From the NCBI GenBank assembly GCA_017992055.1, contig JAGOPK010000002.1, forward strand, positions 1 to 64,000: a DNA stretch of 64,000 nt, given 5' to 3'. Shown here piece by piece: positions 5,368-22,619 of the stretch. The stretch's first letter is position 1; every line of letters begins with the position of its first letter. Both the position numbers and the translations under genes were made by a program. The notes under the pieces are model-generated. The model was not told where the DNA came from. It saw nothing but the letters and a program-made list of their open reading frames with translations, and searched no databases. Origin of the DNA: Burkholderiaceae bacterium. GTDB taxonomy: Bacteria > Pseudomonadota > Gammaproteobacteria > Burkholderiales > Burkholderiaceae_C.

Positions 5368-6144
5368 TCAGAGGCGGAAGAGCTTCTTGATCTCGGCTTC
5401 GGCCTTGAGCGTCAAGCCCTCGGCCTCGTATCGCTTGGTGTTTTGGACGATGACCTTGGCACGTGTGATCTCGTTGTTGACCCGCTGGGTGTACGAGAAA
5501 TTGGTGCTCAGGGCATCGATCACCGCGAAGAAGTAGTCCCGCTGGTTGTTCAGGAACCAGAAAGTCAGGCCGCAGACCCACTTCTCCATCTCGAAGGAAG
5601 GGAAGACGTAGCCGCTGGCCGCGCTCCAGAATTTGAACTGGCGGATCGTCGGCTTGATCAGCGAGCGGTGCTCTTTGTTTCTGGCTTCCAGCGTCGCGTT
5701 GAAGTCGTTAGGACTGGTTGTCTGCCAGCCGCCCGCGCCGTTCGGGATCTGCAATTCGCCGAACCAGTTTGTGGTGGCCGGTACCAGATCGAACTTGATG
5801 TGGTTCAGCTCCAGGACGATGGTCGGCTGCGACTGGTAAATCTCGGAGGTGCCGTAGCGCCGTTCGACGAAGGACCGCAGGCGGTTCAGATACGTCTGCG
5901 GCGTGGCGCTGGCGTCGTTGAACACGATCATGTAGTCGATGTCGGACTGCTCATCCATCGATCGCGGCAGGATGGTGCCGCGCGTGGACGACCCGAACCG
6001 GAAGTGCTGCTTGATGACGCCGGCTTCGAAGTGCAGGCCGAGTCGGCTCTGCAGCGTGCTCACCGAGGTATTGATGGACTGTTGCTCGGTGCCGGACAGC
6101 ACCGCACTGCTGGCCAGGTCGGTCAGAAAGCTCAGGACGGACAT
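5368..6144 (-). CDS. CD-NTase-like nucleotidyltransferase (SMODS family)
   Basis: The 258-residue protein has the polymerase-beta-type core of cGAS/DncV-like enzymes: GSSTRGT at 51-57, the metal pair D68-I-D70, and a third acidic residue D119 in IKFDLVP. These are the residues needed to make cyclic or linear nucleotide second messengers. C-terminal helices (PTIRQFKFW, KWVCGLTFWFLNNQRDYF) fit the helical OAS-type lid, but the protein is short for the family. The preceding gene, three bases away, encodes a SLATT two-TM protein, the known effector partner, so the pair reads as a CBASS-like abortive-infection system. The exact nucleotide product cannot be told. Confidence 0.88.
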   Translation of the reverse strand: MSVLSFLTDLASSAVLSGTEQQSINTSVSTLQSRLGLHFEAGVIKQHFRFGSSTRGTILPRSMDEQSDIDYMIVFNDASATPQTYLNRLRSFVERRYGTSEIYQSQPTIVLELNHIKFDLVPATTNWFGELQIPNGAGGWQTTSPNDFNATLEARNKEHRSLIKPTIRQFKFWSAASGYVFPSFEMEKWVCGLTFWFLNNQRDYFFAVIDALSTNFSYTQRVNNEITRAKVIVQNTKRYEAEGLTLKAEAEIKKLFRL

Positions 6145-6147
6145 TGC

Positions 6148-6678
6148 TCAAGCCCCCTGATCGACTTTGTGCCTAGCTTCGCCCTCCTCGATGCCCTTGC
6201 GGGCAGCGACGAACGCACGCCGAGGGATGCTGGGGCTCTTCTGGTTCAGCTCGTTCCTGGCTGCCGAGAGTGCCCTGAGCTTGTCGGGCAGCTCGGCCAA
6301 GCGATCAAGCTGCAGCAAGTCGATCTCCCGGAAGAAGCGCGCCTCGTTGCGGAGGGCCAGGAACTGTCCCGCTGCGGCACGATGCAATGCCGCCCGCTCA
6401 TTAGGTTTCAGGAAGGTCATCAGGCCGGTCAACAGGGAGGCGAGCAAGGTCATCGCCGTGGCCCACTCGGGATAGCTCTTGATCAGCGATGCGCCCGCGA
6501 TCGCGCCCAGCACGGTGGCCGGCACGCCCAGCCAGTAGTTGCGCCGGACCCAGGTGTCTTCCGCGTTGAAGTGCCCCTTGCTGGAGTAGGTAGCGTCTTC
6601 TTCGAGCCGTTCCGCCTCGCGCCGAAGCGCCTCGATCGTCGCGGCGTCGGTGTCGTTGCCGCCCTTGGTGTCCGTCAT
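6148..6678 (-). CDS. SLATT two-TM effector protein
   Basis: The 176-residue protein has an N-terminal charged coiled helix (residues 12-30), two TM helices at about 48-66 and 72-90 with a short Lys/Pro turn between, then a conserved cytoplasmic helical part (KPNERAALHRAAAGQFLALRNEARFF). This is the SLATT layout (SMODS- and SLOG-associated two-TM effector). Such proteins are thought to form pores or damage the membrane when a CD-NTase product binds. I chose ATG 6678 because AGGGAAG lies seven bases upstream; a GTG at 6828 overlapping vsr would add 50 low-complexity residues. It precedes the CD-NTase gene by three bases. Confidence 0.88.
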   Translation of the reverse strand: MTDTKGGNDTDAATIEALRREAERLEEDATYSSKGHFNAEDTWVRRNYWLGVPATVLGAIAGASLIKSYPEWATAMTLLASLLTGLMTFLKPNERAALHRAAAGQFLALRNEARFFREIDLLQLDRLAELPDKLRALSAARNELNQKSPSIPRRAFVAARKGIEEGEARHKVDQGA

Positions 6679-6824
6679 CTCATCTTCCCTGATGTGTTGT
6701 TGATCTGTCGCATCAGCGTCCCGTCTTCGCGGGTGGGCTGTCGGCCTCGGATTCCAGTCGCCGCCAAGTCGGCACAGCCATGTTGTGGCGCCCTGATGCT
6801 GGTGTTGAGGAGTCCATGGCAGGC

Positions 6825-7280
6825 TCACGTTCCAGCAATTTCAACCAACCCTGGGGCAGGCCTACGGATGGAGCATTCGCATTGTTCGACCACTTGCTCT
6901 GCACCAAGCCGTTTCGGTCCCCGCAACGCACATTCCCAGACCACCAGCACATGCCAACCCGCAGACACTAGTTCGTGGATGGCCCGGCGATCACGCTCAC
7001 CGTTTGCTGCAAGCTTGGCACTCCAAAACAACTGACGCGTAGACGGCAGTTTGGACAGGCTGCAGCCGTGCGCGTGCCAGAAGCAGCCGTGAACAAAGAG
7101 AGCTGTCTTGTACTTCGGAAATACAAGATCGGGTCGACCCGGGAGTTCCCGGTCGTGCAGGCGATAGCGCAAGCCTCGGGCATGCAGGCCACGTCGCAGC
7201 ACAAGCTCAGGTTTGGTGTCCTTGCCCTTAATGCGGCTCATGTTGCGTCGCCGCTGTTCAGGGGTGAGCACGTCAACCAT
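6825..7280 (-). CDS. vsr: Very short patch repair endonuclease Vsr
   Basis: The 151-residue protein matches Vsr along its whole length. Catalytic D51 lies in GRPDLVF, and H64 and H69 lie in FVHGCFWHAHGC, with structural zinc-type Cys/His residues. Vsr nicks 5' of the T in T:G mismatches that arise when 5-methylcytosine deaminates, protecting sites methylated by a C5 methyltransferase. That fits the cotranscribed C5 methyltransferase three genes upstream. The start codon directly follows the stop of the DUF2357 gene. Vsr genes travel with C5 methyltransferases in many restriction-modification loci. Confidence 0.95.
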   Translation of the reverse strand: MVDVLTPEQRRRNMSRIKGKDTKPELVLRRGLHARGLRYRLHDRELPGRPDLVFPKYKTALFVHGCFWHAHGCSLSKLPSTRQLFWSAKLAANGERDRRAIHELVSAGWHVLVVWECALRGPKRLGAEQVVEQCECSIRRPAPGLVEIAGT

Positions 7281-8948
7281 TCAAGCCCCGACTTCCACTC
7301 CTGAATCCGCGACGATGGTGCGCAGGCAGCCACGCAATTCATCACCAGTCATGCCTGGCCGCAGCGTTACGGCGCCGAAACGAAACTTCTCCCGGTACTC
7401 AGGATGGAACAGCCTGCCTGGTACGGGCGTAGCTTTGAAATCAGTCTGAAGGCTCGCGGGAACGTAGGGTGTCAAAAGGTAGGCCGCAGACACGATGCCC
7501 TGTGTCTGGCCGCTATCAACCTCATACACGAGCGCGTCACGATAGGTGTGGATCGAATTCAGGGCGTCATTGAGGCCGTCATTGATCCGGTACTTGGCAT
7601 CGAGCACGATGATGCGCGGCTCTGGTCCGCGCAGGTTCCTTCCCGCCAGCACGACATCGGGCACCATCGTCCGGCTGAAACTGCCTTCGCGGCTGTCCTC
7701 GACCCAGTATTCGCGGTACTGCCGCTGAAAGCAAAGCACGCGATCACCGCCGATCGGTACGGTGATGGCGCCGGCCGCGATCGTCACGCCGCCACCCGCC
7801 TCGCTGAGGAACAGGTTACTCAGGTCAACGCCCGTGGCGCCATATTCCTCGACGGCGGCGCGCAGCAGGCGCAGGAAGCACCACAGCTCGTACAGCTCAT
7901 AGGTCCGGGCCAGCGGCATCTGCAGAAAGTCGCCGAACAGCGCGGCGAGCCCGAGATTCATGTCCTGCCAGAGTCGGTAGAAGCGCTGATAGACCGGATC
8001 GTTGCGGAACAGCGAAGACATGCGCAGCAGTGCCGGCCCCTCACCTACTTCGGTCATGAAGCCCCTCGCGGCGGCATCGTTCAGGCGTCGCGCGATGCGA
8101 CGCGCGCGCACGGCCCAGCTGCCAGCCGCGTTCACGATCTCGGCATCATCCGTGGCGCCTGCTTTGGCCAGCAGCTCGGCGACGCCGCCGAGCCATGCAG
8201 ACCAGGACCGCAAACAGGCCTTGATCTGCCGATGCTCCGGGATGTCCACGCTGTTACGGCGCTGCCGCAGCGTGATCTGCGCCGGCAGACGCCCCTTGAG
8301 TGCCGCTGGCAGCCGTGATGGCGTGACGGTCTCGGTCCGGATGACGCCGGAACGGAAGGACTTGATGATCTCGGGCCCGGTCGCGCGTGTGGCACGGTGC
8401 ACCGGCACCGTGATGTCTTCGGCACGTAGATAGTGCCGCGGCGCACGGGCGATGGCTTCGACCGTCTCCACGATTGCATCGGCCCGAGAGCGCAGGAATT
8501 CAAGGCGGGCGAGTGGCGGCGGCCGGTTGCCTCGCTGGCGCGCTATGCCCTTGCGGAACGCGCTCAGTGAGAAGAGGGCGAAGGTGTCTTCGAGGACTTC
8601 GCGCACCATCGCGTCGAAGTCGTCGCGCGTAAGCTTGCGCAGGTCCGGATCGGTCGTGACCTCGAAGCGGCGGGTCCCAATGCCCGGCACGCGGAGCACA
8701 GCCTCCACCATGCCGGCATGAAAACCAGGCTGCCAGCGCCAGCGGGCCTTGCGCGGTTCGCGCGACCGCAGCGCCTCGACCGGCGCATCGTCGATCAGCA
8801 GGTCGGCCGACAGCGCATCGTCACTGTCGCGCAGTTCAAAGAGGTAGGACGCCCCCTCCCGCACCGCCCCGGGCGGCACAGCATCCGGCATGGGCCAGAC
8901 CTGCCATGCCGGTCCGCCGCTTTCGGCCTGGATGTAGAGCGCCGTCAC
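7281..8948 (-). CDS. DUF2357 / McrC-like PD-(D/E)XK restriction nuclease
   Basis: The 555-residue protein has an N-terminal DUF2357-like beta-rich region, a long helical middle (about 110-350) and a C-terminal nuclease core VPDVVLAG...IIVLDAKYR near 445-475, the PD...D-x-K pattern. Proteins of this type pair with McrB-like GTPases as the cutting subunit of LlaJI-type and McrBC-like systems. The gene follows the McrB-like gene by three bases and abuts vsr, so the three are surely one operon. The target is probably DNA not protected by the cognate methyltransferase; that is inferred from context. No damage is seen. Confidence 0.88.
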   Translation of the reverse strand: MTALYIQAESGGPAWQVWPMPDAVPPGAVREGASYLFELRDSDDALSADLLIDDAPVEALRSREPRKARWRWQPGFHAGMVEAVLRVPGIGTRRFEVTTDPDLRKLTRDDFDAMVREVLEDTFALFSLSAFRKGIARQRGNRPPPLARLEFLRSRADAIVETVEAIARAPRHYLRAEDITVPVHRATRATGPEIIKSFRSGVIRTETVTPSRLPAALKGRLPAQITLRQRRNSVDIPEHRQIKACLRSWSAWLGGVAELLAKAGATDDAEIVNAAGSWAVRARRIARRLNDAAARGFMTEVGEGPALLRMSSLFRNDPVYQRFYRLWQDMNLGLAALFGDFLQMPLARTYELYELWCFLRLLRAAVEEYGATGVDLSNLFLSEAGGGVTIAAGAITVPIGGDRVLCFQRQYREYWVEDSREGSFSRTMVPDVVLAGRNLRGPEPRIIVLDAKYRINDGLNDALNSIHTYRDALVYEVDSGQTQGIVSAAYLLTPYVPASLQTDFKATPVPGRLFHPEYREKFRFGAVTLRPGMTGDELRGCLRTIVADSGVEVGA

Positions 8949-8951
8949 GGT

Positions 8952-10628
8952 TCACCGCATCGCCTGGAAGGAGCCGAAATCGTCGAGGTCGGCCAGCAGC
9001 TTATGCACGAAGGCCTTCGCACGCGGCAGACCTTCGCAGGCCTTGTCGAGGCTGGTCAGCAGCGGGCGCTGCCGTTCAGCGCCACGTAGCTTCACCAGGA
9101 CCTTCTGCACCAGCAGCTGGTCGGTGACATCGGCTGCCGGGCTCTTAAGGCTGGTCGCATCGAAGGCGTGGTAGCGCACGAACTCTTCGATCAGCCGGTA
9201 ACCGAAACCGAGCCCGTACTGCTGCATCAGGCCATGGATTTCGGTGAGCTTCGCTTCGGATGCGGCGCGCGCGTCCTTCAGCTCCGGATAACGGCCTTCA
9301 AGGGAAGCAAGGAAGCCCGGCACATCGACCGCCGACATGTCGATCACTGACGCGCGGTCGAGCACCTTGTCGCTGACCGGGTTCGTCGTTTCATCGACGT
9401 TGATAGTGCCGATGATGAAGAGATTTGCAGGCAGCGGCAGCTCGGCGCGGATGCTGGCGCCCGTCGTGCCTTCCAGCGGCACGCTGTTCGAGTGCAGTTG
9501 CAGCCGGCCCTGGGTCTCCATGCAGGACAGCACGTCTGAGAGGTAGTACTCGACGCGAGCCAAGTTCATCTCGTCGAGGATTACGAAGACCGGCGACTCG
9601 CGATGCGCAGTCGCGACAAGTACCGCTTCGAGGAAGGTCGGCACGACGTAGCGGTTCGTGAGCACGTCGAAATAACCGGTCAGCCCGGTCGGATCGGTCC
9701 ACTCCGGCCGCACCGGGCACTCGAAAATCAGCGGATCGTCGTCGGTGTTCGATGTCAGGCCGTGTACGGCCCTGGCGTACTTGAGAGCGAGCTGGGTCTT
9801 GCCCGTGCCCGACAGGCCCGACAAGATCACGAAATGCTTGTGCGGCAGGAAATTCAGCGCAGCATGAAAGCGCCGCACTTCGCCGTTCGGATAGTGGCCG
9901 CCGAGCGTCTGTACGGCGGCTTCGATGTCTGCAACGGGAATGCTCGCCGGCATGCGCCGCATGGCCTCGCTCAGCGTGGCGGTCTCAGCCCAGACCGGTA
10001 GCTCGTGAATCTTCTGCGAGCCGACCAAACTGCCCAACCAACCAATGAATTCGCGTGCCAGCAGGCTGCGCCGCGCTGAGGCGGTCGGCGGGTAAAGCGC
10101 AACTACGATCTCATCCGGCTCCGTCGCCGGGCCGAAGGACGTCATGTCGAAGGCCAGGCTGTCCCAGAACTTGGCGTTGCGCAGCCAGAGCCGCCCGTCA
10201 CGGGCAAGGTAGATCGGAACAAGGTTGTTGCGTGCGCTGTACTTGATGGTTGCGCCGGGGGCTTCGGGGGCATCCTCTTCGGCGCCCTCGGACAACAGGT
10301 CGGCAGGTTCGGCGCCGGCTGCTTTCGCGGCAGCGCCGAGCCTCTTCATCTCAGCGAGGCGGGCCAGGAAGCTGGCCTTGTCCTTGCGCACCAGGACCGC
10401 GAAGTAAACCTCATCCTCGGGCGGGAAGCGCATGACGCAGCCGAAGATCAGCGCTTCGGTGTCTTCCTTGACGTTGTCGAGATTGACGACGCCGAGCTGA
10501 ATGCCGCCTTCGACGATCTTGGCGCTGTTGGAGACACCGAACAGCTCGCGCGGGCGGACCGCCTTCGATGTCTTGAAATGCTTTTGCGCAGCCTCAAGAA
10601 ATCGCTGCTGCCGCTCGACGAGGTTCAT
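8952..10628 (-). CDS. McrB-like AAA+ GTPase restriction subunit
   Basis: The 558-residue protein has an N-terminal region of about 250 residues, probably DNA-recognising, and a C-terminal AAA+ module. Walker A is GLSGTGKT (271-278), Walker B is VFVILDEMNLA, and IIGTINVDETTNPV is the McrB-type sensor/GTP-binding stretch. Such proteins form hexamers that translocate DNA and activate the McrC-like nuclease encoded next. The start codon lies 35 bases inside the end of the methyltransferase gene, which points to translational coupling. The combination C5 methyltransferase, McrB-like and DUF2357 matches the LlaJI class of nucleotide-dependent restriction systems. Confidence 0.92.
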   Translation of the reverse strand: MNLVERQQRFLEAAQKHFKTSKAVRPRELFGVSNSAKIVEGGIQLGVVNLDNVKEDTEALIFGCVMRFPPEDEVYFAVLVRKDKASFLARLAEMKRLGAAAKAAGAEPADLLSEGAEEDAPEAPGATIKYSARNNLVPIYLARDGRLWLRNAKFWDSLAFDMTSFGPATEPDEIVVALYPPTASARRSLLAREFIGWLGSLVGSQKIHELPVWAETATLSEAMRRMPASIPVADIEAAVQTLGGHYPNGEVRRFHAALNFLPHKHFVILSGLSGTGKTQLALKYARAVHGLTSNTDDDPLIFECPVRPEWTDPTGLTGYFDVLTNRYVVPTFLEAVLVATAHRESPVFVILDEMNLARVEYYLSDVLSCMETQGRLQLHSNSVPLEGTTGASIRAELPLPANLFIIGTINVDETTNPVSDKVLDRASVIDMSAVDVPGFLASLEGRYPELKDARAASEAKLTEIHGLMQQYGLGFGYRLIEEFVRYHAFDATSLKSPAADVTDQLLVQKVLVKLRGAERQRPLLTSLDKACEGLPRAKAFVHKLLADLDDFGSFQAMR

Positions 10629-12099
10629 CCGCCGTCTCCCTGTCTGATTGTTTGAGCGTCTTCATGATCTGGGTCGCGACGGCCTTCGCCAGCAGCGGCG
10701 GGACGGCGTTGCCGATCTGCCGGAAAGCCGGGTTCATCGTGCCGCAGAAGGCGAAGCCATCCGGGAACGAGTGAAGACGTGCGGCTTCTCGCACGGAGAT
10801 CGTGCGGGCCTGCTTGCTGTCGTAGTGAATGTGGCTGTAGCTGTCCTTGCCGAGGTGCGCCATCAGCGTGCGTGCAGGCTGATCGCGCCACATCTTGCGC
10901 CACTTGTTCGGGAACTTGCCTACGTCGTAGGGCGGCACAATCGAGGCCTTGATGTCCTCGTATTTCTGTGAGCCCGGCTTGACCTTAACGCCCTGCTTCT
11001 CCAGGTCGGCAAGGTGCTGCTCGAACATTGCCATGGCGTGTTCGTAGGCCTGCGGATACTGGTCGCCGGGGTTCATGCGGGCAAACAGCGGATAGTCGCG
11101 CGGCAGATAGCGGATTACGTGATCAGTCAGGGCCTCCGGCGCCTCGAAGCCAGGCCATGTTCGCATCAGCTTGGCGTAAGCCGTATGTGGCTCTTTGCCG
11201 TAGGGCATGGGCACGTCAAAACGCCTGGCGCCGCGGCGCAGTTCGCCGCTCTTGAGCAGCGTACGCGCATCAATGGCGGGCAGATCGCCAAGCGCATCTT
11301 CTGCAGTAACGGCGGGCGGCAGCGAGCGCGAGGCCTTTGGGGCTGGAATGTAGTGATGCGCGCCGTCATCAATCTGCCCATTGAGGAACTTCAGCGCTAC
11401 TGAGCGGGTTCCTTCATAGCCTGGGGGCAGGTCAATGAAGTGCGTCGGCTCGGGAAATGTCACCTCAGCGGAAAGTTCACGGCGGTAGGCGACCAGGATC
11501 ATCCGCTCACGCATCTGCGGCACGCCGTAGAAGGCGGCATTCAGCAGCGTGTAGCGGCAAATATAGCCCTTGCTCTCCAGAACTTCGGCGATCTCCTCGG
11601 CGATGTTCTGGCCTCCGTGATTCAGCACATCCGGAACGTTTTCGACAACGACGGCCAAAGGAGCAAAGGCCTCGACGTATCGGAGGTAGTCGATGTAAAG
11701 CTGGGCGCGAGGATCATGCTTGAACGCCTCAGCGTGGTTATCCACCTCGCGGAGCTTCGGCCGCCCCACACGAGCGAACGCTTGGCACGGTGGGCCGCCA
11801 ACCAGTACATCGAAAGCATCTGCCGTCGGACCGACTTGCAGGTCTTTAGCCAGTTGGTCGGGCTTGGTCTTGGTGATGTCGCGGGCCTGCGAGTGAGCTG
11901 CTTCCCCGCCGTGAAAATTGCGGCCGTGAGAAGCTGCGGCTTCAGGATCGAATTCGACTGCGGCTGCGATGTTGAAGCCCGCTGCAGAAAACCCGAGCGA
12001 AATTCCGCCACATCCGGCGAACAGATCCAATACCCGGGGCTTGCCACCAGCCTGAAGGCGGGCGATCTTCTGTTGAATGGCGCGTGCGGTCTTGCTCAC
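10594..12099 (-). CDS. DNA (cytosine-5) methyltransferase
   Basis: The 501-residue enzyme carries C5-methyltransferase motifs in order: motif I DLFAGCGG at 25-32 (SAM binding), motif IV GGPPCQAF at 101-108 with catalytic C105, motif VI VVENVPD near 147, and the C-terminal motif IX/X IGNAVPPLLAKAV. It transfers a methyl group from SAM to cytosine C5 and should protect host DNA from the McrB-like/DUF2357 nuclease encoded downstream. The target recognition domain (about 260-400) is large, and its site cannot be read from sequence. The presence of vsr in the operon supports 5mC as the product. Confidence 0.95.
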   Translation of the reverse strand: MSKTARAIQQKIARLQAGGKPRVLDLFAGCGGISLGFSAAGFNIAAAVEFDPEAAASHGRNFHGGEAAHSQARDITKTKPDQLAKDLQVGPTADAFDVLVGGPPCQAFARVGRPKLREVDNHAEAFKHDPRAQLYIDYLRYVEAFAPLAVVVENVPDVLNHGGQNIAEEIAEVLESKGYICRYTLLNAAFYGVPQMRERMILVAYRRELSAEVTFPEPTHFIDLPPGYEGTRSVALKFLNGQIDDGAHHYIPAPKASRSLPPAVTAEDALGDLPAIDARTLLKSGELRRGARRFDVPMPYGKEPHTAYAKLMRTWPGFEAPEALTDHVIRYLPRDYPLFARMNPGDQYPQAYEHAMAMFEQHLADLEKQGVKVKPGSQKYEDIKASIVPPYDVGKFPNKWRKMWRDQPARTLMAHLGKDSYSHIHYDSKQARTISVREAARLHSFPDGFAFCGTMNPAFRQIGNAVPPLLAKAVATQIMKTLKQSDRETADEPRRAAAAIS

Positions 12100-13639: not shown

Positions 13640-13864
13640 ATGCTGCATGAGGTCTTCAAGGACATCTTCGCTGACCTGCTGGGCCTGGGCCGCCGAGGCA
13701 CTTCGCAGCGCACTGTCGCTGCGCGTCATGTGCCCCCGGTGTTCCCGCTGCATGGGGCTTGGCCCTCGTCGGTAGTGCCTCACCACTGCGACGATCCATT
13801 GGCTGGCGTCTACAGCCACAACCAGGATGGCGTGGCATCAGACATCTACGGCAACCCTGTCTGA
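13640..13864 (+). CDS. Small hypothetical protein
   Basis: This gene encodes 74 residues, supported chiefly by a near-perfect AAGGAGG six bases before ATG 13640, placed across the stop codon of the preceding lipoprotein gene. The N-terminal helix (HEVFKDIFADLLGLG) is amphipathic. The rest is rich in Pro, His and Val and ends DIYGNPV. It has no TM or known domain. It overlaps an opposite-strand candidate gene (13656-14084) over most of its length, so at most one of the two is likely to be conserved in full. Function unknown. Confidence 0.6.
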   Translation: MLHEVFKDIFADLLGLGRRGTSQRTVAARHVPPVFPLHGAWPSSVVPHHCDDPLAGVYSHNQDGVASDIYGNPV

Positions 13865-14084
13865 TTCGGGCTGCACTTACGGCTTGGCCCGTCGTTTCAG
13901 TGGCTCCGAGTCGGATGGCCGCCGCTGCGCGTCGAAGGGCAAGCCTCATCTCTTCGGCGTCCCCATCGCCCGCCACGGCGCTCAGATAGTCGGCCAGGCC
14001 GGCAAGGTCGGCCGAGAACTCGCCGATCACGCGGGTCTCGTGCGAGACAGACGGCGCGACTTTCTGGCCGGGCGCTGCTTCCAT
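13656..14084 (-). CDS. Possible small gene antisense to 13640-13864
   Basis: The candidate start, ATG 14084, has AGAAGGAG five bases upstream, a strong ribosome-binding site. The first 85 residues look protein-like (helical, acidic, with ADLAGLADYLSAVAGDGDAEEMRLALRRAAAAI), whereas the remaining part overlaps the opposite-strand small gene and has shadow-like composition (many Arg, Pro, Gly). Either the gene is real with an odd tail, or an ancestral shorter gene has lost its stop by a frameshift. A cluster of CATTG repeats lies directly upstream and could be its operator. Confidence 0.4.
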   Translation of the reverse strand: MEAAPGQKVAPSVSHETRVIGEFSADLAGLADYLSAVAGDGDAEEMRLALRRAAAAIRLGATETTGQAVSAARIRQGCRRCLMPRHPGCGCRRQPMDRRSGEALPTRAKPHAAGTPGAHDAQRQCAAKCLGGPGPAGQRRCP

Positions 14085-14124
14085 CGGGGCTCCTTCTGCT
14101 TCGGTCAAGTCGCTGTCGGGCTGA

Positions 14125-14219
14125 ACATTGTTCAATGGCCATTCGACCATTGCCATGCAACCATTGCCAATGTCGATTGCACATTGTTCATTGGCACATT
14201 GCCAGTTGCACATGTGCAA
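14125..14219. repeat. Cluster of CATTG-type repeats and palindromes
   Basis: ACATTGTTCAATGG (14125-14138) and ACATTGTTCATTGG (14181-14194) are near-identical. ACCATTGCCA occurs at 14146-14155 and 14160-14169, with ACATTGCCA at 14196-14204. CATTG-C-CAATG (14162-14172) and CATTG-TT-CAATG (14126-14137) are inverted repeats, and TTGCACATGTGCAA (14206-14219) is a perfect 14-bp palindrome. The cluster lies upstream of the minus-strand start at 14084. It looks like a multi-site operator, possibly an iteron or partition-type site. Confidence 0.6.
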
Positions 14220-14231
14220 GGCCAGGCGCAT

Positions 14232-14826
14232 TCAAGTCGGGCCAGACATGCCGGGCGACGCCAGACATGCGCCCGCGAAAGCGGGTGCGAGCCCGTGCAG
14301 GGCGAGCATCCGTGCCCCCCAGGGCACGGACGCGGGGGAGCCGCCCGGCGTAGCGGTCGCGCTTGCCGCGACCGCAGCGCGCCCCAGCGCGCGTTAGCCG
14401 GGTGGGGGCGAAGCCCGCCGCCCCGCCTCCGGACAGGTTGGATTGGGCCGGCGGGCAACCGCCTTCGTGGTCGCCCCGTCCAGGGGCGAGTCCTGCGGCA
14501 GCGGGACCAAGCGGGGCGCCGATCGGGTACCGAGCGGGGCCATGCGCAGCCGGCGAAGGCGGTTGCCCGCCGGCGCAAGCCGGCGTCCTGTACCTGTTGG
14601 TGAGGGGAGGGGCGGCCAACAGGTTGGCCGGATCGGTCGCGGGCGTCCAGCCCGCGCCACGCCTTGCTCCGCGTCCAGCGGAGACCGCCGCAGGCGGGGC
14701 GTGGGAAGCCGATTCGGAGGCGTGTTGATGGGGACGTTGGGGGCGGCCAACAGCGCGAAGACCACGAAATTTATACTTTGGTCCGCGTAGTAAATAGATG
14801 GCCCTCAACCTTCGAGGACGCCATCC
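14232..14826. other. Non-coding hairpin-rich region
   Basis: I see no convincing gene in these 595 bases. Positions 14269-14697 hold about fourteen stem-loops: 14269-14288 (GAAA loop), 14291-14303, 14309-14330 (9-bp stem, CCCA loop), 14353-14375 (9-bp stem), 14377-14392 (CCCA loop), 14406-14416, 14471-14489, 14523-14533, 14569-14584 (GCAA loop), 14614-14629, 14639-14655, 14667-14683 and 14685-14697. A perfect 21-bp inverted repeat (14447-14467 with 14554-14574) encloses some of them. Three hairpins share the loop GTCCA. The last 70 bases before 14827 are AT-richer and may hold the promoter of the next gene. Confidence 0.75.
14447..14574. repeat. Perfect 21-bp inverted repeat with 86-base spacer
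   Basis: The arms are 14447-14467 and 14554-14574 and match without error, the left one beginning GCCGGCGGGCAACC. The spacer holds two smaller hairpins (14471-14489 and 14523-14533). The right arm can alternatively fold with the next bases into a GCAA-loop hairpin (14569-14584), so two mutually exclusive structures exist. Confidence 0.85.
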
Positions 14827-16050
14827 ATGACCACGCAAACACCACCACTTCCTGGGTCTGCCCGGCCTGTTCTGCGCAGCCAGGCCAACGAGACAGGAGA
14901 ACGGCGCGACCGCCGCATCCTCCACCTCATCAATCGTTTCAGGCTGTTGCGATCGCCCGAGGTCGCCGTGATGCTCAGGGCCAAGACCACGGCAGACTTC
15001 AACCAGTTCTCTCGCAGTTGCCGCCGTTTGCTGGCCGACAAGCAGCTCGGCTCGGTACGGTTGCCCGGTGGGCTTGGGGATGCCTTCTTTCTCAAGGTCA
15101 AAGGCAAGGCCCGTCTGATGGCTGCCGGCGTGACGGCCGATGAGATTCGGGCGTACCGCAGCCTGGAGCTTCCGGCTGGTCGTCCTCAGTTCCACGATGT
15201 CTTTGCGATTCACTGCCTGGCCTGGGCTATCCAATGGAGTCGAGGCCTTCTACCGTCGGGCCTTGATGGTCCGTTGCTTGGCTACGAGACCGAGCCCGAA
15301 CTGCGACGTAGGGCCGGGCACGGCGAGCATGTCGCCGACTTCCGTTTGCGCTGGCGGCTGAAGAACACGGCCGCCACGGACTTGGTGTCGGTCGTGGCTG
15401 AAGTGGAATGGGCCGAGAAGGACGGCGGCTATGCCCGCATCCAGGCCGAAGCCTTGGCCCGCGCTGCGAAGCTTGGCCACCAGGCGTTGGTATTCGTGCC
15501 GCGCACGCCGGGCGTTGGATACGAAGCGCTTGTTGATCGGCAGGTCAGATACCTGAACGACTTCCTCGACTTGGTGCCATGGCGCGAGCACGCGGAGCCC
15601 AATCTCTGGATCGTCTACGGCGACATGAAGACGCGCCAGTCGATGCGTCCGACCTTCAAGGCGGTTCCCTTCGTGGAGGCACTCGCCGCCTTGCAGTCCT
15701 CCGGCAAGCCCGTCACAGCACGACGGCGCCGTGACGCGATGACGGCGCGGTTCAAGGTTACTGCGCCAGGCAGTGAGGGTGAGGTTCGCGTCGAGCGTAT
15801 CGGCGCTGTCTACCCAGTCTGCTGCGAGTGTGGCCCCATGCCGGACGCGCCCAATGAAACGCTGTACGTGAACCTGCTCAACCGCATCAGCGACACGGTG
15901 CTTTTCGGCGAGACCATGCCACTGACGCAGGGCATGCACGCGGCTTTGGCGCTGGCTCGCCGGTGGCTGCTCGATGATGTGACGATTGCCGAGCATCTGG
16001 AGCGTTCGGGATTCAATCCGGCGACAGGGCTTCCCGACGACTTCGTCTAA
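14827..16050 (+). CDS. Winged-helix Replic_Relax-like protein
   Basis: The 407-residue protein begins with a winged-helix region (about 24-100: RRILHLINRFRLLRSPEVAVML ... FFLKVKGKARLMAAG) typical of the Replic_Relax/MobC-like family encoded by plasmids and integrative elements, where they assist relaxation or replication. The middle (DFRLRWRL, then VVAEVEWAEKDGG) resembles the second domain of that family, with acidic residues arranged like a degenerate nuclease core. The C-terminal 150 residues are unassigned, with a CCECG motif near 339. It stands alone downstream of the hairpin region, which is a possible binding substrate. No relaxase gene is nearby. Confidence 0.7.
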   Translation: MTTQTPPLPGSARPVLRSQANETGERRDRRILHLINRFRLLRSPEVAVMLRAKTTADFNQFSRSCRRLLADKQLGSVRLPGGLGDAFFLKVKGKARLMAAGVTADEIRAYRSLELPAGRPQFHDVFAIHCLAWAIQWSRGLLPSGLDGPLLGYETEPELRRRAGHGEHVADFRLRWRLKNTAATDLVSVVAEVEWAEKDGGYARIQAEALARAAKLGHQALVFVPRTPGVGYEALVDRQVRYLNDFLDLVPWREHAEPNLWIVYGDMKTRQSMRPTFKAVPFVEALAALQSSGKPVTARRRRDAMTARFKVTAPGSEGEVRVERIGAVYPVCCECGPMPDAPNETLYVNLLNRISDTVLFGETMPLTQGMHAALALARRWLLDDVTIAEHLERSGFNPATGLPDDFV

Positions 16051-16260
16051 TCCGTTCGGACGCTGGCTTGGCCCAACCACCTGGCCCGCTGTCATGGACC
16101 GACGCGCTTGCGTTCATCGCCGGGGGCGCCGGCTATGCAGAAACTGCGCGCCTGACCCTCACATCATCGATCTGATCGTGTAGAGCCAGCTCCGAGGAGC
16201 CCTTGGGGCTTCGTTGCACTTGCAGACAAAATGCTCGCCAAAAGGGGAGGTCACAGAACC

Positions 16261-18081
16261 ATGAAGGTCGTCCAGCTCAGCATCTCGAACTTCCGCAGCA
16301 TCAAGTCTGCAGACTTGCATTTCGATGGTCACACTCTGCTCGTAGGCCCGAACAATGTCGGCAAGAGCACGATCTGTGAGGCTCTCGACCTCGTGCTCGG
16401 ACCGGACCGAATTTCAAGGTTCCCGCCGGTCGAGGAGTTCGACTTCCACAACGCCAACTACCTCCAGGCGCCTGCGGAGGAGGGCGGTGAGCCGACTCCG
16501 ATCCCCATCCGGATCGCCGTAGTCCTGGTTGACATCAACGCCGAGGTCGAAAACCGTTGCGGCCAGCACCTGGAGTTCTGGAGCACCGCTGAGCGTCGCG
16601 TACTTGGCCCCGGCGAGGTCGCCGAGGCCAACCCACCGCAGGTCGTCAGCTGTCTTCGCCTAGAGACCCTGGCCAAGTACAACCCGGAGGAAGACGAGTT
16701 CGAGGCGCAAACCTACTTCACCCACAGTCCGAACGCGGAGCCGGACGAGCTGGATCGGGTTGGCAAGGACGTCAAGCGCCTGTTCGGATTCCTCTACCTT
16801 CGCGCAGTCAGAACCGGGTCGCGTGCCCTAAGCCTGGAGCGTGGCTCCCTTCTCGATGTCATCCTGCGGCTCAAGGGCACCCGTGCTGGGTTGTGGGAGA
16901 AGGCGATCGAGCGCCTGCGTGGCCTGGACATTGAACAGGACGCCGCAAACCTGCAGCCAGTCCTGCAGTCAATCGAGTCCCGGCTCGGCAAGTACATCGC
17001 TACCGACGTTCCCGGGCGGACGACAAAGCTGCACGTCTCGCAGCTCACCCGGGAGCACCTGCGCAAGACGATGGCCTTCTTCCTGGCTATCTCGCAGGAT
17101 CAGCAGCCCGTTCCCTTCCAGCAGGTCGGCACCGGCACGCTCAACGTCTTGGTGCTGGCCCTGCTCTCGTTTATCGCAGAGCTGAAGCCGTCCTCGGTCA
17201 TCTTTGCGATGGAGGAGCCCGAGATCGCTCTGCCGCCGCACACGCAGCGTCGCATCGCCGATTACTTGCTGCACAAAACGACCCAAGCCTTCGCGACCTC
17301 GCACTCGCCGTTCGTCATCGAACGGTTCGAGCCAGAGCAGACAATTCTCTTGTCACGGGGGCCAGACTCCAGCGTCGTCGGCCAGCGCGTCTCGGATTCG
17401 TCAGGTCTGAAGGGCAACGACTTCCGCAGGTATGCTCGCCGAGGCCTGACCGAGTGCATGCTTGGAAAGGCTGCGATCGTTGTCGAGGGGCTGACCGAGT
17501 TCAACGCCTTGCCAGTGGTTGCGCGGAAGATGGAGGAAGCCAACGAGGAACTGCAGCCTCTCGACATCGCCGGTGTTGCCTTCTTCGATGCCGAGTCTGA
17601 AGGTTCGATGCCCAAGTTCGGCAACTTCTTCAAGAGCCTGGGGCTGAAGACCTTCGGCTTCTATGACCTCGCTGCGCGATCCGCACAGAAGAAGCAGGAG
17701 CTGGTCGATGCGTACGACATCGACTGCGAGCACCAGTACGCCGGCTTCGAGGCGCTCGTCGTAGCGGAGATCCCCGTCGATCGGCTGTGGTCGTTCCTCG
17801 ACGACCTGCGTGAGACCGGCGACTGCGGCAACTTTGTCATCCCGGCGGCGCGACCAGCCGATGATGCCGTGCGTGCATTGGTGATGTCCGCCCTCAAGGG
17901 GCACAAGGGTGCGGGGTGGGCTGCTAGGCTGCTGGACGGATGCGAGGTCCACGAACTGCCAGCCACCGTGACCGCTTTCCTGACGCCGATCTATGCGGCC
18001 TTTCCGAAGCCCGTCGATGCAGTGGCGGTACCAGCCCCTGCCGAAGCAGCTCCGCCGGCCGCCGGCGGCGCACCAGCCTGA
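16261..18081 (+). CDS. gajA: Gabija nuclease GajA (OLD family, AAA + TOPRIM)
   Basis: The 606-residue protein starts with an ABC/SMC-like ATPase domain: N-terminal FRSIKSADL, Walker A GPNNVGKST at 29-37 and a signature/Walker B region (VIFAMEEPEIALPPHTQRR, about 310-330) with H-loop ATSHSPF. A TOPRIM nuclease domain follows near 400-490, with [13 protein letters not shown] and FFDAESEG giving the catalytic acids. This is the class 2 OLD layout of GajA, which nicks phage DNA when nucleotide levels fall. ATG 16261 is preferred over 16231 because GGGGAGG precedes it by ten bases. The helicase gene gajB starts 15 bases after its stop. Confidence 0.9.
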   Translation: MKVVQLSISNFRSIKSADLHFDGHTLLVGPNNVGKSTICEALDLVLGPDRISRFPPVEEFDFHNANYLQAPAEEGGEPTPIPIRIAVVLVDINAEVENRCGQHLEFWSTAERRVLGPGEVAEANPPQVVSCLRLETLAKYNPEEDEFEAQTYFTHSPNAEPDELDRVGKDVKRLFGFLYLRAVRTGSRALSLERGSLLDVILRLKGTRAGLWEKAIERLRGLDIEQDAANLQPVLQSIESRLGKYIATDVPGRTTKLHVSQLTREHLRKTMAFFLAISQDQQPVPFQQVGTGTLNVLVLALLSFIAELKPSSVIFAMEEPEIALPPHTQRRIADYLLHKTTQAFATSHSPFVIERFEPEQTILLSRGPDSSVVGQRVSDSSGLKGNDFRRYARRGLTECMLGKAAIVVEGLTEFNALPVVARKMEEANEELQPLDIAGVAFFDAESEGSMPKFGNFFKSLGLKTFGFYDLAARSAQKKQELVDAYDIDCEHQYAGFEALVVAEIPVDRLWSFLDDLRETGDCGNFVIPAARPADDAVRALVMSALKGHKGAGWAARLLDGCEVHELPATVTAFLTPIYAAFPKPVDAVAVPAPAEAAPPAAGGAPA

Positions 18082-18095
18082 CGGGCGAGATCGCC

Positions 18096-19844
18096 GTGCA
18101 AATCTGCGAGCTACGTCAGAGCCTGCTCGACTGCCAAGGTCATGCCCTGGTGCTGGGAGGTCCGGGTAGTGGCAAGACGACGATCGCGCTGAAGAAGGCC
18201 GTCGTCCGGATCAACGCCGGTCTCGATGCCGGGCAGTCGGTGCTGTTCCTCAGTTTCTCGCGGGCAGCCGTCGCGAGGCTGGGCGAGGCAATGAAGCAGG
18301 AGGTCCCGAAGACCCAGCGAAGTCAGCTGAGCATGCAGACCTTCCACTCCTTCTTCTGGACGCTACTGTCGGCCCACGGCTATCTTCTGGGCGCCCCACG
18401 CAAGCTGCGCATCCTGCTGCCTCAAGACGAACAGGTGGAGTACGGGTCGATCAGGCCACGCGAACGCAATGTGCAGAACGCCGACTGGCGAGCCTGGCTT
18501 GCAAGGCGCGAGGAGATGTTCCGGCAGGACGGGCGTATCGCCTTCGATCTCTTCGCCCGCAATGCGGAGGCGCTGCTCACTCAGAGCCAGCACATCCGCA
18601 GGCTGATCACGCAACGCCACCCGCTGATCATCGTCGACGAGGCGCAGGACACCGACGCACATGCCTGGCGGTGCATCGAACTGCTGTCCGCCACGGCGCA
18701 GATCGTCTGCCTCGCCGATCTGGACCAGCAGATCTTCGACTACTTGCCGGGGATCGGGCCCGAGAGAGTGGATGCCATCCGGCAGACTCTGGCGCCGCTG
18801 GAGATCGACCTCGGTGGCCAGAACCATCGCAGCAGCGGCACCGAGATTGCGATCTTCGGGCAGGACATCCTCACTGGCCGGGCCAGAGGTTCGTCCTATG
18901 CAGGCGTCTCTTCGTTCGGGTACGACCCACGGCGCCGGCCGCAGAAGACAGCTTTGAGAATGGCACTGGGCATCCTGCAGCGATCGATCAGGGCCGCCAC
19001 AGGTCGCTACGGCCGCAACGTCGCGATCCTGACCCACTCGGGTGTTTCTGCGGCAAAGGTCTCTGCCTCGCTGAACGCCGATCCCAAGCCGGTGCGGCAC
19101 AAGCTCGCGTTTGACGAGGCCGAGGCGATGCTGACGGCCCGCTTCTCGGCCTTCCTGCTGGAGCCGAAATCCGAAGCCACGCGTCGCGAAGACATCGCAC
19201 TTGGTCTTGAACTGCTCGCGACTTCGAAGGCGGCGGCCGGGCTTGCCGCTGCAGCTCAGTGGCGGCTGTGGGCTGTGCGAGTTCGCGAAGGTCGAGAGCC
19301 TCGTGCTGGATTCGTTCAGGCGGTGATCGGTGTGATCGATGCCGTGCGGCAGTCATCGTTCACCGGAGACCCGGCGAAGGACTGGTCGTGTGTGAAGCGT
19401 CTGCTGCGCGACTCAGGGGACCCAGAACTGCTCACCGCAGCCAAGAACCTGGACTACCTGGTGGCCTTCAATCGTGGCCGGCGGATCAGTGCGGGGCTCG
19501 GTGCGATTTGGGCACGCGAAGGCAAGTACACGGGCGCGCGCGAGGCGCTCGACATCGCACTGGCGCAGGACCAGATTCTCGGCGGTGTGGACGATCCGCC
19601 CGGTGTGCAGGTCATGACCATCCACAAGTCGAAGGGAAAGCAGTTCGACGGCGTGATCGTGATCCGCGAGGGAAGGCACAACGGCGAACGACAGGTTTCT
19701 TCATTCGTCTGGTGGGACGACGAGCCGCCGTACTGGCGCAGCAGGAAGATCCTGCGCGTCGGCGTCACCAGAGCCAAGGTTCACACGCTGATCCTGGAGC
19801 ACGTCTTCCCAGCGTGTCCGATTCTGGCAGGGCACACGTTGTAG
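18096..19844 (+). CDS. gajB: Gabija helicase GajB (UvrD-like)
   Basis: The 582-residue SF1 helicase starts at GTG 18096, shortly after gajA; earlier in-frame sequence only shadows gajA. Motif I is GGPGSGKTT (about residue 19), motif II IIVDEAQDT (about 175), motif III CLADLDQQIFDY, and motif IV-VI elements include GGQNHRSSG, VMTIHKSKGKQFDGV and RVGVTRAK near the end. In Gabija, GajB senses DNA ends and forms a complex with GajA. The protein is somewhat longer than typical GajB, with a helical insertion about 370-470. All helicase motifs are intact, so the system is probably functional. Confidence 0.9.
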   Translation: MQICELRQSLLDCQGHALVLGGPGSGKTTIALKKAVVRINAGLDAGQSVLFLSFSRAAVARLGEAMKQEVPKTQRSQLSMQTFHSFFWTLLSAHGYLLGAPRKLRILLPQDEQVEYGSIRPRERNVQNADWRAWLARREEMFRQDGRIAFDLFARNAEALLTQSQHIRRLITQRHPLIIVDEAQDTDAHAWRCIELLSATAQIVCLADLDQQIFDYLPGIGPERVDAIRQTLAPLEIDLGGQNHRSSGTEIAIFGQDILTGRARGSSYAGVSSFGYDPRRRPQKTALRMALGILQRSIRAATGRYGRNVAILTHSGVSAAKVSASLNADPKPVRHKLAFDEAEAMLTARFSAFLLEPKSEATRREDIALGLELLATSKAAAGLAAAAQWRLWAVRVREGREPRAGFVQAVIGVIDAVRQSSFTGDPAKDWSCVKRLLRDSGDPELLTAAKNLDYLVAFNRGRRISAGLGAIWAREGKYTGAREALDIALAQDQILGGVDDPPGVQVMTIHKSKGKQFDGVIVIREGRHNGERQVSSFVWWDDEPPYWRSRKILRVGVTRAKVHTLILEHVFPACPILAGHTL

Positions 19845-20639: not shown

Positions 20640-20872
20640 CAACTACTTGTTGAGATACTTGAAAAATCCTACTTGGCGCTTGGCGGTGGTGACGAAAAAG
20701 TGATTCGGGACAATGACTTGGGATCATTTTTGGCCTGGCCGGCGTACGCGTTCATGCACGACTGGCGAACGCGTTCATGCATGAACATCTGCGGCGTCAC
20801 CCTTCGCTGCCTGCCGTCCGCGACGATGTGCCGCGAACGCGTTCATGCATGAACAACCCATAGTTATCCACA
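20640..20872. other. Putative replication origin: iterons plus DnaA box
   Basis: GAACGCGTTCATGCATGAAC occurs twice (20767-20786 and 20835-20854), and a diverged copy sharing ACGCGTTCATGCA lies at 20746-20758. Each full copy is two overlapping palindromes. A perfect DnaA box TTATCCACA is at 20864-20872, overlapping the repA stop codon. An AT-richer segment (about 20640-20735) could be the unwinding element. The iterons sit directly downstream of repA. The arrangement is that of an iteron plasmid origin. Confidence 0.75.
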
Positions 20873-21772
20873 CCGCTGTTCTCGCCGTGGAACCGCTGGC
20901 GGGCTGGGCCGGAGTTCCACCCCGGTCTCCGTCATCTGGACCCTTGCTTCGGGATACAGCAGCAGTACATCGCGCAGCGCCGGCCGCAGGCGGGCGGTGG
21001 CGCTTCTCAGGGCGGCGGCGTTCCCCTCAGGAGGCTGAATCCCGATTTGCGCGAGTAGTGCAGACCAGGGCAGGCGCACTGGCCGGCGCAATGAGTTGAG
21101 CCGGTAGGTCAAGAACATGTACAGGTCGAGACGGACTGTGGATCTCGTAGCCGCCACTGCCCGCAGGTCGATCGGCACCGCATGCTGGGTGCATTCCAAG
21201 AAGTATTCCTCTGGTACCAGCAGTTGGCCGAGGACAAGGTCAGCCGAGCCATTTCGCAAGCACTCGCCGAACAGCGGCCCCTTGCGTGCGACGAGATGAT
21301 TCTCGAACTTCGGCGGTGAATCGGCTCGGTTGATTTCGATGAACAGACTGCGACACAGGCGGTCCAACTGATTGGCGTACCGCACGATGCTGCCGCCGTC
21401 GCCGCGACTTCCGCGAATGCCCAGGGATCGGAAGAAAGCCGACTGGCTTGGTGCCAGGTCGATGCACCTGCTCTTTGTTTGCACGATCCGGGTTGAGATC
21501 CAAATCAGCCAGATACGGGCGACGTGACCGTATGGCACGCCCAACGCCGGGTCGCTGACGATTCGGAGCTGTCGCCGGCCACCGTCGCGCTCGTAGACGC
21601 TGGTGATCGGCTCCGTGTGGGGAAGACCCAGCAGAGCCAAAAAGCTGGGCACATATCCGATGGCACCTTCCTGGATCGCGGGTACACCGCAAATGCGCTT
21701 GTGCGCCTCCTCGATACCGAGGGGCCGGGCCAGCGGGAAGTGAGGGTGCCGTTCTTTGCCGCGTGCCGCCAT
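20864..21772 (-). CDS. repA: Plasmid-type replication initiator RepA
   Basis: From ATG 21772 the protein is 302 residues. It resembles the plasmid-encoded RepA family: GYVPSFLALLGLPH near 38-51, then the hallmark block PYGHVARIWLIWISTRIVQTKS followed by IDLAPSQSAFFRSLGI and GGSIVRYANQLDRLCRSLF, which forms winged-helix DNA-binding units. The start overlaps the stop of the upstream HTH gene as TGATG, so the two are translationally coupled. Downstream lie three iterons and a DnaA box. In an integrated element such a protein would drive replication after excision. The longer upstream frame is a shadow of the HTH gene. Confidence 0.85.
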   Translation of the reverse strand: MAARGKERHPHFPLARPLGIEEAHKRICGVPAIQEGAIGYVPSFLALLGLPHTEPITSVYERDGGRRQLRIVSDPALGVPYGHVARIWLIWISTRIVQTKSRCIDLAPSQSAFFRSLGIRGSRGDGGSIVRYANQLDRLCRSLFIEINRADSPPKFENHLVARKGPLFGECLRNGSADLVLGQLLVPEEYFLECTQHAVPIDLRAVAATRSTVRLDLYMFLTYRLNSLRRPVRLPWSALLAQIGIQPPEGNAAALRSATARLRPALRDVLLLYPEARVQMTETGVELRPSPPAVPRREQRCG

Positions 21773-22122
21773 CACACGGCGCCAGCAGCCATCCGACGCG
21801 CGATGGTTTCGGCCTTGGTCGGTCGCCCACGTTTGCGTGTCGCTACGGTCAGGGCGGGCGTGATGCTGGTCTGGCGGCCCGATGCGTGGGTATCGATGTA
21901 GTCGGCGAGATCGACCAGGCGCACGTACCAGCGTCGGCCTTGCTTGAAGCATTTGAGCCGGCATCGGCCGGCGCTCAGCTCATTAAGCAGGGTTTGATGC
22001 GCGCGGGCGCATTCCCGGGCGGCATCGACCAGATCGACGACGGCGGGATATCGCGTGGAGAGGAGCGAGAGGGTACGAGATTCCTGGCCAGCAGGGGCCG
22101 ATGAAGCCTTGAGGTTGGGCAT
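21772..22122 (-). CDS. Excisionase-like / HTH DNA-binding protein
   Basis: From ATG 22122 the protein is 116 residues; a GTG at 22146 would give 124. The region LKCFKQGRRWYVRLVDLADYIDTHA (about 65-90) has the RRWYVRLVDLADYI pattern of MerR/Xis-type winged helices. The C-terminal TRKRGRPTKAE is an AT-hook-like basic motif. Such proteins act as excisionases or control replication. Its stop codon shares a base with the repA start, and it is the gene nearest the right att site. Either role (directionality factor or repA regulator) fits. Confidence 0.7.
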   Translation of the reverse strand: MPNLKASSAPAGQESRTLSLLSTRYPAVVDLVDAARECARAHQTLLNELSAGRCRLKCFKQGRRWYVRLVDLADYIDTHASGRQTSITPALTVATRKRGRPTKAETIARRMAAGAV

Positions 22123-22572: not shown

Positions 22573-22619
22573 CCTTGACATGGTGGGGGTCGTTGGTTCG
22601 AGTCCAATCGCGCCTACCA
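22573..22619 (+). repeat. Right attachment site (tRNA-Val 3' half remnant)
   Basis: These 47 bases match tRNA positions 99-145, with G instead of A at 22602. There is no 5' half, so it is not a functional tRNA. The G matches the usual T-loop TTCGAGT, so this is probably the original chromosomal tRNA end displaced by integration. Confidence 0.93.

Follow-up and report, generated by a model that had tools for sequence, protein, structure and literature searches.

An ordered hairpin array as a candidate origin of transfer in a defence-carrying integrative element

How defence islands without a secretion system of their own move is largely an open question. The 64-kb stretch of DNA analysed here (the window) holds a 22.5-kb integrative element in which a dense array of hairpins, at 14269-14697, lies upstream of the gene for a 407-aa protein (P0001), and we ask what this array does for the element. 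The first-pass annotation had offered four options, namely a structured RNA, a decoy or bait RNA, a single-strand origin or mobilisation site for the adjacent protein, and a set of mobile palindromes. This interpretation holds in part: the mobilisation site fits best, with a structured RNA as a less probable reading, and nothing was found in support of a decoy or bait RNA.

The element and its hairpin array

The element is bounded by att copies derived from a tRNA gene (99-145 and 22573-22619), which differ by one mismatch. It has an integrase and att repeats and, in the scanned ORFs, no type IV secretion system (T4SS) of its own, as expected of an integrative mobilisable element (IME): Pfam searches find no T4SS domains among 18 element ORFs or in a 72-aa ORF at 13646-13864, and no coupling-protein or transfer genes are found in the window's element. 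The defence setting proposed for the array is borne out by the CBASS, Gabija and restriction-type cargo around it. The main features are as follows.

69-142, plus strand: tRNA gene, the integration target, with the att copy at 99-145 (Rfam tRNA; att repeat)
387-1445, plus strand: tyrosine integrase of the element (PF00589, 5.4e-29; sister-element protein 99% identical)
5368-12099, minus strand: defence cargo (domain and defence-system matches)
14117-14221, no strand assigned: conserved block 1, a CATTG/CAATG cluster with a palindrome, candidate protein-binding (relaxase-binding) site (conservation, repeats, palindrome)
14269-14697, plus strand: hairpin array, candidate oriT or mobilisation nucleic acid (hairpin count, folding, conservation, recurrence, covariation)
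14827-16050, plus strand: P0001, 407 aa, candidate relaxase, a weak distant relative of Replic_Relax/MOBC proteins (HMM of relatives)
16231-19844, plus strand: Gabija GajA and GajB (cargo)
20742-20855, no strand assigned: 23-bp repeats at 20742-20764 (78%), 20765-20787 and 20833-20855, likely oriV iterons
20864-21964, minus strand: RepA_C plasmid-type replication initiator (PF04796, 5.7e-12; conserved in the sister element L011)
22573-22619, plus strand: right att copy, the end of the element

The cargo at 5368-12099 comprises a CBASS cyclase, a 2TM effector, Vsr, a DUF2357/PDDEXK_7 protein, an AAA protein (weakly McrB-like) and a C5 DNA methyltransferase, and only 34 bp of DNA match in the sister element. 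The three 23-bp repeats lie beside repA and away from the array, and are likely oriV iterons. RepA and the integrase have many plasmid matches, nearly all below 60% identity. A second RepA_C-type gene (33% identity) lies elsewhere in the same genome (G000:C30:249130-249954; L037, L042), and the array descriptor defined below finds no array in 20 kb of L042.

The array contains 12 non-overlapping perfect hairpins (stem of at least 5 bp, loop of 3-8), whereas 200 dinucleotide shuffles of the same stretch have 5.4 on average and at most 10; when stems of at least 6 bp are required, it has 9, against a shuffled mean of 2.3 and maximum of 6. The array reported by the first-pass annotation thus exceeds the shuffle maximum, but its count of about fourteen stem-loops needs looser criteria, and the hairpins, dense as they are, do not tile the stretch almost entirely, perfect ones covering 50% of it. 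Loops among the 12 include three GTCCA, two CCCA, one GAAA and two GCAA, located where that annotation had put them. Stem coverage is the highest of any stretch in the 64-kb window and also in 391 kb sampled from the same genome, window included. The perfect 21-bp inverted repeat and its alternative local fold are likewise confirmed: the arms at 14447-14467 and 14554-14574 enclose a GTCCA hairpin, and the 5' arm also folds on itself with a GCAA loop (ggcggGCAAccgcc). The features referred to below are as follows.

14309-14330, plus strand: A, CCCA-loop hairpin
14332-14344, plus strand: B, GCGG-GGGAG-CCGC
14377-14392, plus strand: C, second CCCA-loop hairpin
14405-14424, plus strand: D, GGGGCG...CGCCCC hairpin with GCGAAG
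14447-14467, plus strand: E, 5' arm of the 21-bp inverted repeat, self-complementary, forming a local GCAA hairpin
14471-14489, plus strand: F, GTCCA hairpin inside the inverted repeat
14554-14574, plus strand: E', 3' arm of the 21-bp inverted repeat
14569-14584, plus strand: G, GCCGGC-GCAA-GCCGGC hairpin ending the 3' arm
14639-14655, plus strand: H, GTCCA hairpin
14667-14683, plus strand: I, GTCCA hairpin

Folded as RNA, both strands of 14260-14735 are more stable than shuffled sequences, the plus strand (-328.6 kcal/mol, z -8.4) more so than the minus strand (-289.5 kcal/mol, z -5.6). Mechanical ORFs overlap the stretch. No Rfam family scores above threshold in the array, the one chance-level match being Ysr224 at 17.5 bits against a threshold of 70. 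Upstream of the array, block 1 contains six direct CATTG and two CAATG repeats and a 14-bp palindrome, TTGCACATGTGCAA, at 14206-14219; it has nine ATTG or CAAT in 105 nt, compared with a window average of 0.26 per 105 nt.

Conservation and recurrence of the array

A 28-kb MAG contig (JAFEBX010000017.1), the sole P0001 relative from a scan of genome contigs, carries a sister element (L011) that shares the att sequence, integrase, RepA end and P0001 module with the window element. Its cargo differs and consists of MzaB, MzaC, an opposite-strand GajB with an OLD-type ATPase, and an ankyrin-sigma70 protein. Because L011 keeps the array despite this different cargo, the array is part of the element backbone. 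The two arrays differ at 5 of 429 positions, compared with 46 of 218 fourfold sites in P0001, 23 of 191 in the integrase and 13 of 211 in the repA frame (counted on the window's 366-codon frame; an early stop interrupts this frame in L011, where the ORF has 303 aa), and the array is under strong nucleotide constraint. One of the five changes converts a GCA loop to GTA and none falls within a perfect local stem; by eye, the change at 14594 removes the outer pair of a possible alternative stem. Block 1 has a single change in 105 positions and a block at 14757-14849, downstream of the array, has none. The gap at 14222-14259 has 7 changes in 38, and such a variable gap between two conserved blocks disfavours simple recent recombination. 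Apart from these regions, an isolated 217-bp stretch at 2096-2312 is 89% identical to the sister element, where it lies just after the integrase.

The same architecture is found upstream of P0001 relatives in two diverged elements, L095 and L096, where ten array features, chosen by eye after looking, are collinear and similarly spaced. The shared order runs from a CCCA hairpin, a GGGAG element, a second CCCA hairpin (CCAG in L095), a GCGAAG-type hairpin and the 5' arm through a GTCCA hairpin inside the repeat, the 3' arm and a post-arm hairpin to two GTCCA sites; in L096 the stem of feature H has only 2 bp and feature I has one mismatch. The stems themselves differ in sequence from those of the window. 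Smith-Waterman scores of the window array are 26 against L095 (shuffle mean 17, 3 of 300 shuffles as high) and 18 against L096 (shuffle mean 17, 114 of 300 as high), so that, with linear similarity near background, the relatedness of the window array to these two rests on the ordered features. The L095 and L096 arrays are clearly alike (63; best shuffle 28).

We wrote a descriptor from three arrays, requiring a repeat of at least 13 bp that encloses a GTCCA hairpin, a further GTCCA hairpin at most 170 bases downstream and a CCCA hairpin at most 250 bases upstream. Run on both strands of 994,521 bases, a sample enriched for such neighbourhoods from which 12 duplicate or short loci had been left out, it returned the window, L011, L095, L096, their overlapping copies and one new place, L068. 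As a neutral background for the repeat with inner GTCCA hairpin only, 687 kb of this genome contain 59 repeats of the required kind, none with an inner GTCCA hairpin.

Neither L068 nor a fifth array, L123, was used in defining the descriptor, and the feature pieces named for them were picked by eye. The L068 array (about 7540-7880, minus strand) contains A, B and D, a CCCA hairpin in the place of C, the repeat, the inner GTCCA hairpin and one downstream GTCCA hairpin; a GAA hairpin replaces the last GTCCA, and the post-arm hairpin sits between two parts of the 3' arm. Beside it, on the plus strand, lie a coupling-protein domain (about 8211-9632) and then a PF13814 gene over the cut-off. If translation began at its first ATG, the coupling-protein frame would run into the array. 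The L068 array points opposite to these neighbour genes and is therefore not simply the leader of their mRNA. L123 was reached through a protein relative in genome G680 (E 1.3e-6). Upstream of the gene for this protein, a repeat surrounds one GTCCA hairpin, with another GTCCA hairpin after it and CCCA hairpins before it; judged by their positions, these parts satisfy the descriptor. Core features A, D, E, F, E' and H are present, C, G and I are without assignment, and the GGGAG element precedes the CCCA hairpin. Part of this array recurs about 300 bp apart (about 8770-9470), as if duplicated.

Eleven other upstream regions (L065, L066, L069, L070, L086, L087, L088 and L090-L093; L089, a duplicate of L088, and L094, with its upstream region masked, were dropped) form a larger, alignable sister type of array. 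A perfect repeat of 18-25 bp is present in 10 of the 11; the exception, scored as negative, is L070, whose upstream region aligns with the others and has no long repeat. In eight, the arm is self-complementary around a GCGA loop, in eight, CCGGC-GNA-GCCGG follows the 3' arm, with variants in L069 and L093, and in 9 of 11 the repeat is preceded by a hairpin with a GTCCA or GTTCA loop and a stem of 4 bp or more, the analysis behind this last figure also counting L011, a near duplicate of the window; L011 was dropped from the loop and arm-folding counts, and L070 from the 10-sequence consensus folds. A covariance model of one conserved sister-array block (R1) finds its ten members, and L070 weakly (E 0.003), and does not find the window array; the sister type is therefore treated as related in plan and not as proven homologous. 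Four of its members (L086, L087, L088 and L090) carry, between the repeat arms, one or two copies of the perfect palindromes TTTCATCGATGAAA or TTTCCACGTGGAAA, which look like candidate sites for a dimeric protein.

GTCCA sites in both types of array form hairpins on one strand. With every site counted unfiltered, a stem of at least 4 bp flanks 10 of 15 plus-strand sites in the five arrays of the window type and 9 of 15 in those of the sister type, compared with 0 of 0 and 0 of 18 on the minus strand; in 687 kb of this genome the figures are 17 of 1090 and 8 of 987. The first-pass annotation had made its case depend on conservation of the stems in relatives, and the GTCCA stems do covary: over 27 distinct sites of the 30 (window and sister type) the covariation score is 0.545, compared with a shuffled mean of 0.164 (0 of 500 as high) and 0.09-0.18 when the stem is slid. 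Two of five measures are less striking, with 6 both-side changes (139 of 500 shuffles as high) and 19 further pair types (3 of 500). The strand counts and the covariation together indicate that GTCCA sites are kept as hairpins in one orientation.

P0001 and the MOBC relaxase family

The first-pass annotation called the adjacent protein Replic_Relax-like, a label that stands only by an indirect link: neither P0001 nor its L011 homologue has a Pfam match to PF13814 (Replic_Relax) even at E values up to 10. An HMM of 13 relatives, built without either protein, matches P0001 at E 0.0049 and L011 at E 0.002, and the next best of 1812 sequences at E 0.3, placing P0001 above noise, if weakly. Two of the 13, L095 and L096, had originally come from a search whose profile included P0001. 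With the remaining 11-member HMM P0001 falls within noise (E 0.7), and L095 and L096 match on their own (2e-8 and 1.7e-9). For the link of P0001 to the family, hhalign gives a probability of 2%.

PF13814 is present in 6 of 200 genomes of the bacterial family. Scores range from a clear 81 bits in L059 and 31.1 in L060, over the cut-off, through borderline values in L062 and L063 (20.4 and 23.4 bits as proteins, just over 25.3 in a six-frame search) to 15.5 bits, below cut-off, in L095 and no match in L096; L062 and L063 resemble P0001 at the N terminus. Of the six PF13814 loci, the neighbours of two, L059 and L060, were examined, and in both the PF13814 gene is immediately preceded by coupling-protein domains. 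When P0001, its L011 homologue and three more proteins are combined into a profile, 12 of 250 genomes of the family match, counting the own genome. A MOBC relaxase would be expected to have an N-terminal winged helix and the D...E-x-(D/E) active site of the PD-(D/E)XK fold; read by eye, the alignments of P0001 show NRFRLLRSPEVA and set D171...E192-V-E194 opposite RPD...EVDRS, with MAFFT placing the D in different columns. The AlphaFold model of P0001 has a pLDDT of 37.5 and is unusable, and a PDB sequence search gives a best E of 0.13.

The available text of PMC5357655 gives PF13814 as the relaxase domain of MobC, and a PD-(D/E)XK-like nuclease domain is a feature of MOBC relaxases according to the available part of PMC5714925. 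P0001 is a candidate distant MOBC-like (PD-(D/E)XK-type) relaxase, weakly linked to the family.

Single-sequence searches for relatives of P0001 in 300 and 369 genomes return nothing beyond the own genome. One match among 399 genomes, L005, was rejected as false, running across frames of other genes. When 21 genomes of the genus are searched with the array DNA, the matches outside the own genome amount to short stretches of 25-40 bases. Searches of plasmids and phages, with P0001, its array and the relatives' proteins and arrays as queries, return nothing besides one relative of L063 on Polaromonas pPNAP03, and scans of viral contigs find no relative. The gene at L070 (Polaromonas naphthalenivorans pPNAP03, 166119-167432) is a plasmid relaxase-like gene annotated as a replication-relaxation family protein.

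Origin of transfer, RNA or another role

The hairpin order and loops recur in diverged islands beside relatives of DNA-transfer enzymes, and the array is therefore probably the island's transfer start site. Conserved non-coding inverted and direct repeats lie beside presumptive relaxase genes in either orientation, as at an oriT. At close to even confidence, we read the array as the mobilisation region (oriT) of a MOBC-like integrative mobilisable element carrying defence genes, the best fit for the proposed mobilisation site of the adjacent protein: the array is a backbone component and is found again next to relatives of the MOBC relaxase family. The element would excise at its tRNA att sites. 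P0001, as putative relaxase, would bind here, with the CATTG repeats at 14117-14221 as a possible contact site, and cut a single strand. Once set free, this strand would present its GTCCA, CCCA and GNA/GNNA hairpins in a constant orientation, and the long inverted repeat could alternate between the 21-bp duplex and local hairpins. The hairpins may then organise the relaxosome, pass the strand to the type IV secretion system of a helper and allow re-circularisation. Points against an oriT are that P0001 has no Pfam match and is only weakly linked to the family, that L095 scores below the PF13814 cut-off and L096 has no match, that the plus strand has a folding excess as an RNA would, and that R1 misses the window array. 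To our knowledge, oriT regions rarely hold ten hairpins.

Among described systems, the MOBC pairs of relaxase and oriT (TraX of pAD1, MobC of CloDF13) resemble the locus in having a repeat-rich intergenic region beside a gene, here one distantly related to PF13814 proteins. In the available text of PMC12857230, the binding site of TraX consists of five direct repeats at a distance of about 70-120 bp from nic, and the window likewise has a direct-repeat cluster apart from its hairpins. Unlike them, P0001 has no Pfam match, the likeness being one of description and not of sequence comparison, and ordered hairpins with conserved GTCCA and CCCA loops go unmentioned in the accessible portions of these accounts.

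Alternatively, the array could be transcribed into a structured plus-strand RNA, acting in mobilisation or otherwise in trans and comparable to the sgm-sRNA of SGI1, a reading that we consider less likely than an oriT but its main rival. In SGI1, an integrative mobilisable element whose non-coding mobilisation region adjoins an atypical relaxase-like gene, the mobilisation module can need both oriT and an sRNA from the same region, and the functional domain of the sRNA, needed for transfer, is encoded between oriT and that gene (PMC9299015, as far as its available text goes). This precedent is likened by description and not by sequence comparison, and its MpsA/MpsB differ in belonging to the tyrosine recombinases.

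Comparisons bearing on RNA versus DNA give mixed results. The window's plus strand has the lower z (-8.4 versus -5.6) and folds beyond composition with an excess of -21.5 kcal/mol, and consensus folds with G.U pairs give -147.6 (plus) versus -127.8 (minus) for the sister type, nearly the same proportion as -122.7 versus -104.7 for rnpB of the same bacterial family (17 of 24 loci used, selected by length). GNNA loops outnumber TNNC loops by 17 to 1. The strand-energy excess favours the plus strand in 10 of 14 arrays (12-15 shuffles each), strongly in the window, in support of an RNA; that the rnpB control does so in 10 of 10 counts against one. At strand-neutral consensus pairs the sister type has GT 14 and AC 10 (23 and 16 with L070 added), against 16 and 3 in rnpB, all small numbers, and the GTCCA sites have no G.U excess (GT versus AC 8 versus 15 in 27 rows, 2 versus 2 in 18 well-paired rows). 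Rfam holds no matching family. No sigma-70-like promoter is found in 13850-14900, a weak point against an RNA because 0.0 are expected there by chance too, other promoter types lying outside the model. GOLLD, ROOL and HEARO/omega RNA are large structured RNAs of mobile elements and, like the array, occupy a long GC-rich structured stretch upstream of a gene for about 400 aa; unlike them, the array has no Rfam match and P0001 no Pfam domain.

An improbable third reading makes the hairpins single-strand initiation or replication sites (sso/ssi-like) or single-strand promoters, active after the strand enters a recipient. Their strand specificity and conserved loops would suit this role, and the elements encode plasmid-type replication proteins (RepA_C in the window and L011, AAA_25 and RepC in L090); however, it is the relaxase-like gene that accompanies the arrays, the replication proteins varying among the elements examined, and likely iterons adjoin repA instead. 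Integron attC sites and the single-strand origins of phages and rolling-circle plasmids are strand-specific hairpins as well, but about ten hairpins in fixed order are, as far as we know, unlike either. It is very unlikely that the region does no more than regulate P0001 through a cluster of operator sites: palindromes and repeats do lie upstream of the gene, and block 14757-14849 is unchanged in L011, but operators would not need covarying stems with conserved loops, nor do they fit the opposite orientation in L068 or the length of the region. That the array is an accumulation of dispersed REP-like or other mobile palindromes is hardly credible, for although this genome has GC-rich hairpins elsewhere at lower density and part of the L123 array looks duplicated, a whole-genome DNA search with the array yields no second match at E <= 0.001, the search for GTCCA hairpins elsewhere that the first-pass annotation proposed finds only 9 with stems of at least 5 in 687 kb, both strands, and the feature order is collinear in diverged elements.

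With the origin of transfer as the preferred reading, the most far-reaching possibility, to which we give somewhat less than even confidence, is a class of mobilisation nucleic acid that has so far gone unrecognised. In it, hairpins with conserved GTCCA, CCCA and GNA/GNNA loops would follow one another in set order on one strand, together with a long switchable inverted repeat; such an array would be common to diverse MOBC-like integrative elements, several with defence systems, and its structured single strand (ssDNA at transfer, or RNA) would recruit the relaxase and couple the element to foreign conjugation machines. No such array is described in the accessible parts of the literature on relaxases, oriT, structured RNA and defence-carrying IMEs, a scope to which subscription literature is mostly external. 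If the array is an oriT or a mobilisation RNA, its conserved loops provide a searchable signature for mobilisable defence elements in this bacterial family, and the array itself a defined substrate for studying non-canonical MOBC-like relaxases; if it acts as its own class of structured nucleic acid, it would be more than a variant of an oriT or mobilisation region.

The islands of L096, L095, L065 and L011 also carry defence-type genes, which across these islands include DrmA/DrmB, a type III methyltransferase with a restriction protein, a ThiF-type protein with an N6 methylase, and MzaB/MzaC. In the window, the Vsr, DUF2357/PDDEXK_7, AAA and C5 methyltransferase genes are consecutive (6825-12099), and this row may constitute one methylation-linked defence system.
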